A stretch of DNA of 30,829 bases from a virus: positions 1 through 30,829 of IMG/VR virus record IMGVR_UViG_3300037041_000256. One strand, 5' to 3'. Within the stretch, counting starts at the first letter, position 1; each line of letters begins with the position of its first letter. Shown piece after piece: positions 28,583-30,829 of the stretch. The position numbers and the translations under genes are program-made. The notes below the pieces were generated by a model. The model had not been told where the DNA came from, did no database searches, and was given only the letters and a program-made list of their open reading frames with translations.

Positions 28583-28699
28583 TTATTTAGTTGTTAAATT
28601 GGTTTCTATTTTTTCTAACTGTTGAGTGTCTGCATCGAATGATCCTCCGATGAGTAAGCCTGCTATCAGCATGGCGAGAAAGAGTAGTGCTTTTTTCAT
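28583..28699 (-). CDS. Short secreted or membrane-anchored peptide
   Basis: 38 residues: MKKALLFLAMLIAGLLIGGS followed by a polar end. Residues 3-20 form one hydrophobic segment, as in a signal or anchor. It is the first gene after the strong promoter (28722-28752), so it should be highly expressed early. It starts 20-30 bases below the predicted start site. Short phage membrane peptides can act in exclusion or lysis timing, but nothing specific is visible. It also ends directly before the next start. Confidence 0.6.
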   Translation of the reverse strand: MKKALLFLAMLIAGLLIGGSFDADTQQLEKIETNLTTK

Positions 28700-28721: not shown

Positions 28722-28752
28722 CAAATGTACTACAATATTTTAGATATGCAAA
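28722..28752 (-). promoter_or_regulatory. Bacteroidota-type promoter for the early block
   Basis: On the minus strand TTTG (28749-28752) is followed by 19 bases and TACATTTG (28722-28729). This matches the Bacteroidota consensus TTTG, 19-21 bases, TAnnTTTG in every fixed position. The first gene starts at 28699. A second -7-like element TAACTTTG lies at 28773-28780 but lacks a good -33 partner. Confidence 0.85.
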
Positions 28753-28799: not shown

Positions 28800-29198
28800 T
28801 TAGAAAAGTATAGTGAAGATAATACCCCCTACAAATGAAATAGGGATACCTATTAGCGCTGCGCTGCGCCAAGATTGTTTACGTGCAGCTTCTTTATTCA
28901 GCTCTTGCTGTGCTGCGCTTAGATTAATTGCCATGCGCTCGTTTAGTAGAGTATATTCATCTATAGATTTCTGCTGATCCTTAATGACAAAATTTTGTAA
29001 ACTATCACTTTTTGTCAATAAGACTACCTGAGTTTTAAGATAATCACGCTCAGCTTTTAACTTAAGTAGCGCTCTTACTTCACTACTCGTTAGACTGACC
29101 AGGGTATCTCTCTGAGGCAAGGCTTGAGAGTAGATTGTGCATGGCACGCTTGAGCCCATTACGGTCAAGAGAATCAATAGCGCTAATGTTTGCTTCAT
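28800..29198 (-). CDS. Spanin-like protein with C-terminal membrane segment
   Basis: 132 residues. It has a signal-type start (MKQTLALLILLTVMGSSVPC), then a coiled-coil region with LTSSEVRALLKLKAERDYLK and many Gln and Lys, and a C-terminal membrane segment (ALIGIPISFVGGIIFTILF). The Cys20 region is not a clear lipobox. The layout suits a spanin or other envelope-disrupting protein that acts after the lysis enzyme. It overlaps the previous gene by 116 bases in another frame, as Rz1 does with Rz. I recall an LVSLxxxEVRxLLxLKAERDY pattern from lysis-region proteins in Bacteroidota phages. Confidence 0.6.
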   Translation of the reverse strand: MKQTLALLILLTVMGSSVPCTIYSQALPQRDTLVSLTSSEVRALLKLKAERDYLKTQVVLLTKSDSLQNFVIKDQQKSIDEYTLLNERMAINLSAAQQELNKEAARKQSWRSAALIGIPISFVGGIIFTILF

Positions 29199-29439
29199 AT
29201 CTTTCTTTGTTACGTTCTAATTGCACATTCAGTTGTTCAATTTCTAACATGCGCTGCACGTTAGTAGCTTCTAATGAATCAATAACATGCGTAGCTCTGT
29301 CTGCTCTGCGCTCATAACCTTCAATAGCTTTCTTGCTATCCTTTAAAGCTATGTATAATAGCTGAATAATAATGCAGATGGTGAGCGCTACTACTATAAC
29401 TGCAGCTGCTTTAATTTGATCCTTCGTTTGTTGAGTCAT
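29083..29439 (-). CDS. Putative i-spanin-like membrane coiled-coil protein
   Basis: 118 residues. An N-terminal membrane anchor (about 11-32, AAAVIVVALTICIIIQLLYI) is followed by a periplasmic-type coiled coil (KDSKKAIEGYERRADRATHV, then QLNVQLERNKERYEANISAI). The C-terminus is short and polar. This is the plan of Rz-type inner-membrane spanins. The next gene begins inside it in another frame. The role is inferred from topology and place. Confidence 0.65.
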   Translation of the reverse strand: MTQQTKDQIKAAAVIVVALTICIIIQLLYIALKDSKKAIEGYERRADRATHVIDSLEATNVQRMLEIEQLNVQLERNKERYEANISAIDSLDRNGLKRAMHNLLSSLASERYPGQSNE

Positions 29440-29656
29440 TTGATTTCTTTTTAGTAAAGATAGATTCTATAACGGTTAATCCCAAGCCTCCACCGGCTAA
29501 AATTAATAAGCCATCAAACATGTATTCAGGAGTTTTATACTCTGTGAATGTACCAATATAAGATAAGTTGATGCATACAAGTAATGCTATTATAGACGCT
29601 ACTCTTTTAGAGCTTGCATCTCCCTCGTTACTGAATATGCTTTTAAGCCATTTCAT
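29411..29656 (-). CDS. Holin-like membrane protein, two segments
   Basis: 81 residues. MKWLKSIFSNEGDASSKRVAS is followed by a first hydrophobic stretch (about 20-37) and a second (about 49-67, GLLILAGGGLGLTVIESIF), with a short basic end. The SKRVxSxIALLVxINL and FDGLLILAGGGLG pattern recalls small holin-like proteins next to lysis genes in Bacteroidota phages. It would form pores to release the lysis enzyme or dissipate the membrane potential. Overlap with the spanin gene is 29 bases. Confidence 0.65.
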   Translation of the reverse strand: MKWLKSIFSNEGDASSKRVASIIALLVCINLSYIGTFTEYKTPEYMFDGLLILAGGGLGLTVIESIFTKKKSNDSTNEGSN

Positions 29657-29826
29657 TTCTTTTTACGCATCTTATAGATGGTGTAAATAGATGCAGCTGC
29701 AGATAAGATTAAACAAAATATCTTTAATGCAAATTCAACATCTAACATCCATGCTGGCACTGATAACAAAATGCTGCTCACTGTACCGGTTACTCCCTCG
29801 GCTACTTGCTGTTGATGGTTGCTCAT
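29653..29826 (-). CDS. Small holin-like protein, one segment
   Basis: 57 residues: MSNHQQQVAEGVTGTVSSIL, a hydrophobic stretch (about 33-52, FALKIFCLILSAAASIYTIY) and a basic tail (KMRKKK). A charged tail next to one hydrophobic segment fits a class III-type holin or antiholin. It is linked by ATGA to the lysis enzyme upstream and by ATGA to the 81-residue holin-like gene downstream. Function inferred from topology and position. Confidence 0.6.
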   Translation of the reverse strand: MSNHQQQVAEGVTGTVSSILLSVPAWMLDVEFALKIFCLILSAAASIYTIYKMRKKK

Positions 29827-30368
29827 AATTCGTGCAGTAGTGTGTAGGTAAATGACTTCTTACCACTCTTAATACAGGCCTGAATAAGCTCTTTAAATTG
29901 CTTAGGATTGTTTAGTACCTGGCATCCAGCACTCCACTTATCTACGTTCTTTGATTCAGCAGATTCATTTGCACGATGGATGTTAATTCCAAATAGGCCT
30001 GTATCTTCTTTACCTTGCTCCTCAGCTACGCTATCTTTATCAGAATCTCTAAACACTGTTACCTTTTTAGACTGCTTTAATGCGGTGTATTTGCCCTGAT
30101 GCAAGCCAATAACATAACTGTCTACATATTGTCCTACCTTCAAAACTGCTGTGCCTAAGTTATTTATAGGATTGTTCAGCCAAAAAGTACCTGGATTAGT
30201 AGTACCGGTATACCAATTCACCTGATCACCTTGCACCAATCCTATTAAATCATCAAATTTGTTAGGCTCGTTAGCTTTACTTCTGATTCCTACCACGTGA
30301 ATAGTAGGCCACTTATAGCCAAGCTCTGTGAATTGAGCTTTAAGCTCTTCGATTATTGGTGCTTTCAT
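29823..30368 (-). CDS. Putative lysis enzyme with L,D-transpeptidase-like motif
   Basis: 181 residues. The region GLFGINIHRAN to VDKWSAGCQVL has His131, Ser146, Gly148 and Cys149. This matches the His-(n)-Ser-x-Gly-Cys motif of YkuD-type L,D-transpeptidases and phage peptidoglycan-cutting relatives, though the spacing and context differ from standard members. A YTGTTNPGTFWL segment (about 53-64) resembles the substrate groove entry. It is upstream of two holin-like genes, the usual lysis order. No signal peptide. Possible alternative: another Cys peptidase acting on the cell wall. Confidence 0.65.
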   Translation of the reverse strand: MKAPIIEELKAQFTELGYKWPTIHVVGIRSKANEPNKFDDLIGLVQGDQVNWYTGTTNPGTFWLNNPINNLGTAVLKVGQYVDSYVIGLHQGKYTALKQSKKVTVFRDSDKDSVAEEQGKEDTGLFGINIHRANESAESKNVDKWSAGCQVLNNPKQFKELIQACIKSGKKSFTYTLLHEL

Positions 30369-30458: not shown

Positions 30459-30829
30459 TTAGTTAGTAAAGTTACGAATTGAGAATCTACTCCATGGATT
30501 AGCTGAATCGTTAGCAGATCTGCTAAATGCTATTTGACTCTGCCTGTTAACTACACGAATGGGTGTAATATCAGGTGAAGTATTATTGCTATATTCAGGA
30601 TAGTCTGAGTTATTAGCACAAAGATAATCTACCAATCTTTGAGTATAATAGTTAGCATTCTCACGTGCCATATCTCGTAAAGAAGATAGTTCACTTTGAG
30701 AGATCGCTGTAGTATTCTCTGATTGACGAGTAACTAAGTTACCGTTATCATGCTTATACATAAGCATCGGATAAAGCTCTACCATTGTCCACCATGCAGT
30801 AGGCTTAACGATATACTCATTTAATAAAG
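30459..30829 (-). CDS. Head-completion / connector protein (DUF6712-like), C-terminal part
   Basis: The frame runs unbroken to the right edge and continues in the left terminal repeat at 1-351, giving about 191 residues. The local ATG at 30785 is internal. The visible part includes WWTMVELYPMLMYKH and LRDMARENANYYTQRLVDYL, a helix-rich sequence with a Ser/Asn-rich end. It belongs to the same gene as 1-351 and is not a separate protein. Confidence 0.7.
   Translation of the reverse strand, partial: LLNEYIVKPTAWWTMVELYPMLMYKHDNGNLVTRQSENTTAISQSELSSLRDMARENANYYTQRLVDYLCANNSDYPEYSNNTSPDITPIRVVNRQSQIAFSRSANDSANPWSRFSIRNFTN
30684..30829. repeat. Terminal direct repeat, right copy
   Basis: Matches 1-146 except G at 30810 against A at 127. 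The change is silent in the gene that crosses the join (Ile codon). It supports a closed circle or circularly permuted genome. Confidence 0.95.

Follow-up and report, generated by a model that had tools for sequence, protein, structure and literature searches.

Two-component spanins are encoded by adjacent, overlapped or embedded genes in the lysis cassette, as in the lambda Rz/Rz1 pair. The i-spanin is an inner-membrane protein with an N-terminal transmembrane domain (TMD) and a periplasmic coil, and the o-spanin is a lipoprotein recognized by its lipobox; periplasmic cysteines serve for an intermolecular disulfide. The u-spanins, represented by T1 gp11, are encoded by a single gene and carry an N-terminal lipidation signal and a C-terminal TMD. 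In a survey of 677 phages (Kongari et al. 2018, PMC6139136), overlapping spanin genes are reported for 228, and no spanin for 91, including Bacteroides phage B124-14 and two Croceibacter phages. The survey notes that other topologies had been left out of consideration, and it mentions type I inner-membrane proteins as i-spanins that are possible but untested (PMC6139136). Here we describe two overlapping genes, A and B, in the IMG/VR virus record IMGVR_UViG_3300037041_000256, whose 30,829 bases were analysed as a whole and are called the window below. We propose that A and B probably act as a spanin-like pair that closes the lysis cassette and disrupts the outer membrane without dependence on lipidation. 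Since the pair has neither a lipoprotein signal nor the periplasmic cysteines of known spanins, "spanin-like" is meant here as "works like" a spanin, not "is a" spanin.

The pair and its features are as follows.

29083..29439, minus strand: gene A, 118 amino acids (aa), with an N-terminal transmembrane segment and a predicted periplasmic coiled coil, i-spanin-like
28800..29198, minus strand: gene B, 132 aa, with a signal region, a helical part predicted to be periplasmic and a C-terminal hydrophobic segment
29083..29198, minus strand: overlap of A and B, 116 bases including the stop codon of A, with B in the +1 frame
29356..29409, minus strand: transmembrane segment of A, residues 11-28, its sole hydrophobic segment
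29167..29283, minus strand: heptad-like stretch of A, residues 53-91, with invariant residues whose spacing was read by eye
29127..29198, minus strand: signal region of B, residues 1-24, a basic start followed by a hydrophobic core
29124..29132, minus strand: Tyr-Ser/Gln of B, residues 23-25, a predicted signal peptidase I site of the Q-rule type
28866..28883, minus strand: basic flank RKQSWR of B, residues 106-111, with K107, W110 and R111 invariant in 25 members
28803..28865, minus strand: C-terminal hydrophobic segment of B, residues 112-132, without a basic tail

A first-pass annotation of the window had described two spanin-like genes that share 116 bases in different frames, the second beginning inside the first with its signal-type hydrophobic segment in the other frame. 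The coordinates and the +1 frame of B bear this out, and the first hydrophobic segment of B (residues 5-22) lies within the overlap. The C-terminal membrane segment that it had assigned to the second protein is likewise found, at residues 115-132, and its remark that the window's B has no clear lipobox holds for both a strict and a looser pattern. A viral scan with B confirmed 88 relatives, 80 of which were analysed; counts out of 81 refer to the window plus these 80. At a 95% nucleotide cut-off for near-duplicates 67 loci are left, with the window counted and two relatives whose contigs end inside B (L070 and L071) left out. All 80 relatives encode both A and B. Relatives with a single open frame, which the annotation had named as the observation that would speak against it, were looked for in these 80 loci, and its claim stands. 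The overlap measures 116 nucleotides in 74 of them, 98 in four and 95 in two. It should be mentioned that in one relative (L056, 2712-2790) A is open only from residue 27 (GTG, 92 aa), with an apparent indel near the 5' end and the genes upstream shifted by one base, which may be a sequencing error or a broken gene.

Both reading frames are real, and the overlap is dual coding. The synonymous and non-synonymous measures were taken from 59 gap-free sequences and the codon-level test from 61. The pooled synonymous difference in A is 0.28 inside the overlap versus 0.55 outside, and the third-position entropy of A is 0.50 versus 0.95. The non-synonymous/synonymous ratio in the overlap is 0.32 for the A frame, 0.69 for the B frame and 1.06 for the third frame. 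With a B-frame ratio of just 0.69, the case for B in the overlap rests on codons of A that are pinned to the sequence of B. Leu104 of A is CTC in 61/61 sequences (0.06 expected from family usage), which preserves Ser24 of B. The third base of codon 105 is A in all 61 (0.26 expected), preserving Gln25, and Ala99 is GCC in 61/61 (0.11 expected), preserving Pro19. Selection acts at the codon level on the S24-Q25 site of B. In a chance test, 20,000 synonymous versions of A were drawn per locus for three loci, with codons sampled according to family usage. The B frame stayed open in 1.6-2.2% of these versions; in 0.39-0.55% it was open and also had an ATG and a hydrophobic core, and in 0 to 0.035% it had S24-Q25 as well.

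The signal region of B ends in [YF]SQ in 81/81 copies. According to the Q-rule of Bacteroidetes, cleavage by signal peptidase I exposes an N-terminal Gln (accessible text of PMC5837995), and B fits a substrate of this kind, with cleavage predicted between Ser24 and Gln25. Among 75 copies, position 16 of B varies between L, C, F, S and Y; the window has Ser. A looser, PROSITE-like lipobox pattern is matched through this variable Cys16 in 17/81 copies, the window not among them. The strict lipobox consensus [LVI][ASTVI][GAS]C, as quoted by Kongari et al. (PMC6139136), is found in 0/81. Cys20 of B is present in all copies, after Pro or Lys; since its codon is dictated by Met100 of A and the next base, its invariance is no independent evidence, and Cys20 was rejected as the lipidated residue. 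Beyond residue 25 the window's B has no cysteine, and 19/81 copies have one; in A, cysteine beyond residue 32 occurs in 0/81.

At the other end of B, the 12 residues before the last hydrophobic segment carry a net charge of 0 to +4 (79 copies). Beginning with the third residue past WR, the remainder of the protein is free of K, R, D, E and H in all 79 complete copies. The charge after the TMD is +2 to +3 in T1 gp11 and in three Flavobacteriia u-spanin candidates, versus the uncharged tail of B. Searches with B gave no family assignment, with an Rz-like PHROG match in 1/25 members.

A looks like an i-spanin by its predicted topology, that of an inner-membrane protein with an N-terminal TMD and a periplasmic coil. 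Residues I53, L56, N60, I67, L70, Y81, I88 and L91 are invariant in 25 members. Rz-like PHROG matches were obtained for 22/25 members at E up to 0.1, and they are weak, the best having an E value of 0.00049; the score against NCBIfam LysB is 15 bits, with a cut-off of 92.75. AlphaFold models both proteins as long single helices. The model of A has helices at 3-93 and 96-111, with a mean predicted local distance difference test score (pLDDT) of 82 and a predicted template modelling score (pTM) of 0.35, and that of B has helices at 2-17 and 38-131 (mean pLDDT 71.5, pTM 0.26).

The pair stands at the end of a lysis cassette on the minus strand, transcribed in the order endolysin-like gene, 57-aa gene, 81-aa gene, A, B. 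The first three genes are the following.

29823..30368, minus strand: endolysin-like protein, 181 aa, matching phrog_3000 (unknown function, E 1.4e-35) and phrog_33083 ("endolysin", E 7.2e-13)
29653..29826, minus strand: 57-aa protein, holin candidate with one hydrophobic segment
29411..29656, minus strand: 81-aa protein, holin candidate with two hydrophobic segments and no family assigned

Cassette conservation was counted over 85 loci including the window, each count being limited to loci with enough flank. A is present in 84/84, the 81-aa gene in 82/82, the endolysin in 78/79 and the 57-aa gene in 73/82. A search of the PDB with the endolysin gave nanobody matches at chance level only. Some 167 extra bases separate the 57-aa and 81-aa genes in eight loci (L010, L011, L014, L017, L018, L034, L051 and L052), and they could fit one further small gene. 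Downstream of B, a 38-aa exported-looking peptide (MKKALLFLAMLIAGLLIGG...) is encoded at 28583-28699 (minus strand), with a relative in the same place in 64 of the 76 loci with enough flank. Promoters of the Bacteroidota type follow the pattern TTTG-N17-21-TAnnTTTG. The window has a single match to it, at 28722-28752 (minus strand), in the stretch that separates B from the 38-aa gene. As chance alone would give 0.93 matches over the window, only the location is suggestive.

A separate lipoprotein gene was also sought, with a strict filter that, among five control genomes, recovered the candidates of phages 11b, phi10:1 and 6H and missed those of B124-14 and B40-8, and with a looser filter that caught the latter two. 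The looser filter was used on the window and the strict one on eight related records. On the coding strand of the window, the only candidates were internal starts in a 1443-aa gene, which were rejected, and the strict filter gave none. Among the related records, the strict filter gave no candidate in three (G002, G006 and G010), and the candidates in G001, G003, G004 and G008 and one of two in G011 were rejected as lying on the strand opposite to B. The sole candidate on the strand of B is a copy of B itself, with Cys16 (G011).

The window carries a terminal direct repeat, with positions 1-146 matching 30684-30829 at 99.3% identity, and these matching ends indicate that it is probably a complete genome. 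It is noted that IMG/VR classes the record as one without end repeats. The nearest relatives of the large terminase are those of Flavobacterium phage 11b (47%) and Cellulophaga phage phi10:1 (44%), so that a Bacteroidota host is likely. Among named phages, tblastn with B, A or the 81-aa protein and megablast of the first 25 kb of the window gave no match. The 185 pattern matches in bacterial genome contigs included no confirmed relative.

The endolysin leads to further phages. A tblastn search with it matched 26 phage records, and the surroundings of 13 were inspected. In 7/7 Crassvirales among them (cr271_1, ctcc615, crAss002, cr107_1, cr8_1, R. jaberico and cr127_1), a gene for a protein with an N-terminal TMD lies within about 300 bases after the endolysin gene and is overlapped by a second gene, by 74 to 125 nucleotides if an upstream ATG is used. 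The second protein has, in all seven, an export-type N-terminus, a basic flank and a hydrophobic tail with 0-1 trailing residue. LLSC is found near its N-terminus in 3/7; crAss002, cr107_1 and cr127_1 have instead a Gln at the likely cleavage point, as read by eye. Alignment of family B with the crAss-like B proteins by hhalign gave a probability of 75% (P 2.6e-5). Homology of A to its crAss-like counterpart was tried and is unsupported, the profile comparison having given nothing. The window family and the crAss-like pairs share a common layout, and their homology is only weakly supported. The crAss-like pairs are annotated as hypothetical or under unrelated names, and the first gene of ctcc615 is unannotated. 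The annotated start of crAss002 gp7 (L164:4068-4538) looks too far downstream, so that the export signal is lost; second-gene starts in L161, L166, L167, L168 and L169 likewise look misplaced, and upstream ATG codons restore the export signal. Beside the endolysin of DAC16, SJC03, two uncultured phages (635-642 kb), Pseudoalteromonas phage ACA1 and Bdellovibrio phage phi1422, the layout was not seen. In the P2-like ACA1 (L165:3411-4031), the endolysin homologue is flanked by genes for the tail tube and the tail assembly chaperone.

Considering these features together, we infer the cleavage of B, its interaction with A, the membrane entered by its tail and the disruption of the outer membrane. 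The endolysin would cut the wall, after which A and B would disrupt the outer membrane. A would sit in the inner membrane, N-in and C-out, with its coiled coil in the periplasm. B would be exported by Sec, cut by signal peptidase I at YS/Q and not lipidated, and would be held in a membrane solely by its C-terminal hydrophobic helix, with its helical part paired with A. This pairing of coils would draw the membranes together once the wall is cut. The tail of B may enter the outer membrane from the periplasm as a protein anchor in place of a lipid, with A as the inner-membrane anchor. We prefer this placement to a tail in the inner membrane, with the chances of the two about balanced. The lipid signal is not conserved in the window family, while A and the tail of B are, and some crAss-like proteins combine the tail with a possible lipobox. 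In a u-spanin whose tail is the inner-membrane end, loss of the lipid would sever the link to the outer membrane; with the tail as the outer anchor, the lipid would be dispensable. This argument and the missing basic tail give a slight lean toward the outer membrane. A broader version would extend the reading to Bacteroidota phages, crAss-like ones included. Their spanin would be lipid-free, with an outer subunit exported by the Q-rule and anchored in the outer membrane by a fusion-peptide-like, charge-free, glycine-containing C-terminal helix. This subunit would zip onto a coiled-coil partner in the inner membrane, the product of the overlapping gene, and the lipobox of some relatives would be dispensable. 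We regard this extension as tentative and rather doubtful.

Several observations weigh against a lipid-free spanin-like pair. Outer spanin subunits are defined by a lipoprotein signal, which B lacks, and function of the T1 type needs one. The Rz-like matches of A are weak, and coiled coils yield such matches by composition. The frame of B is weakly marked by the non-synonymous/synonymous measure (0.69). The copies of B that match the looser lipobox (17/81) and the crAss-like B proteins with LLSC (3/7) make lipidation possible in part of both families. A single Lys ends 5/7 of the crAss-like tails, and the layout of the pair was not seen near the endolysin in 6 of the 13 relatives inspected. 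By default, Sec leaves a hydrophobic C-terminal segment in the inner membrane. If the tail of B is an ordinary Sec stop-transfer segment, it would lie in the inner membrane and the pair would be without an outer-membrane anchor. The arrangement that follows places both proteins in the inner membrane as an antiparallel coil, with B in type I orientation (N-out, C-in); it would need a host partner in the outer membrane or would act by pushing on that membrane. It is a doubtful explanation that still carries weight: type I inner-membrane proteins are mentioned by Kongari et al. as possible, untested i-spanins (PMC6139136), and the helices predicted for A and B have similar lengths. However, the basic flank would then be periplasmic and no basic cytoplasmic tail would follow, contrary to the positive-inside rule, and no outer partner is known.

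The tail would also lie in the inner membrane if B were u-spanin-like and carried its N-terminal lipid on a non-canonical Cys (either C16, in the copies that have it, or C20), with A as an accessory. The u-spanin candidates of 11b, 6H and phi10:1, with that of 6H and 11b beside the endolysin, make such a protein conceivable in phages of this kind, as do the 17 copies with a looser lipobox at C16 and the C20 found in all. We consider it unlikely, however, since position 16 is variable and Ser in the window, C20 follows Pro or Lys with a codon set by A, the selection on S24-Q25 points to signal peptidase I, and a basic tail is missing. Small membrane or exported proteins beside holins can be regulators, and A and B might accordingly time lysis in an antiholin-like manner, or exclude superinfecting phages, without disrupting the outer membrane. 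This we hold to be quite improbable: the strict pairing, the overlap and the last place in the cassette suit spanins better, and the gene pair found after the endolysin has the same layout in all seven crAss-like phages inspected.

In a further phage group of the Bacteroidota type, the pair is a concrete, testable candidate for lipoprotein-free disruption of the outer membrane. Its features can also serve as a search signature: a gene for a protein with an N-terminal TMD and, overlapping it, a second gene whose product combines an export signal, a coil, a basic flank and an uncharged tail. In crAss-like gut phages, several records of which seem to place the start of the second gene wrongly, the pair may also aid the annotation of lysis genes. 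In the open literature, outside which most subscription papers lie, nothing was found on a Bacteroidetes spanin lipobox, a Flavobacterium u-spanin or a Bacteroidota spanin signal peptide. A Porphyromonas phage paper mentions, in its accessible text, spanins and, separately, Q-rule proteins of unknown function (PMC10367356); the accessible text of a Crassvirales review mentions spanins in general terms (PMC10136315), and the text of Yutin et al. 2021 (PMC7886860) is without the words spanin, Rz1, endolysin, holin, lysozyme and lysis.

Candidate u-spanins are present in 3/9 Bacteroidota phage records scanned, two of the nine having been scanned only in part. All three are annotated as hypothetical; those of 11b and 6H adjoin the endolysin, and that of phi10:1 lies elsewhere. 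B has no sequence match to 11b gp49. B resembles u-spanins of the T1 gp11 kind in having an N-terminal export signal and a C-terminal hydrophobic segment. In contrast to them, it has neither a lipidation signal nor a basic cytoplasmic tail, its periplasmic part is predicted to be helical rather than beta-rich, and it is not the product of a lone gene, being always paired with an overlapping one (A accompanies B in 80/80 relatives). A pair of the A/B type was not seen in B124-14 and the two Croceibacter phages that lack a spanin in the survey. A 138-aa open reading frame of B124-14 (L088:5374-5790, minus strand) has a lipobox-like LTSC signal and is similar to one in B40-8.

The first-pass annotation had likened the arrangement to Rz and Rz1. 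The likeness holds for the layout, the place at the end of the lysis cassette and the conservation of both frames, and it does not extend to the lipoprotein signal of the second protein or to periplasmic cysteines. As in the lambda kind, overlapping genes close the cassette, the first protein is predicted to be a type II inner-membrane protein with a periplasmic coil, and the export signal of the second is encoded within the first gene. Unlike Rz1, B has no strict lipobox, and carries instead a signal of the Q-rule type and a C-terminal hydrophobic tail; periplasmic cysteine is found in none of the 81 copies of A and in 19 of the 81 of B. The crAss-like pairs differ by their little sequence similarity, by LLSC in three of seven and by an overlap of varying length. 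They share with A and B a homologous endolysin upstream, a protein with an N-terminal TMD, and an overlapping exported protein with a basic flank and a hydrophobic tail.
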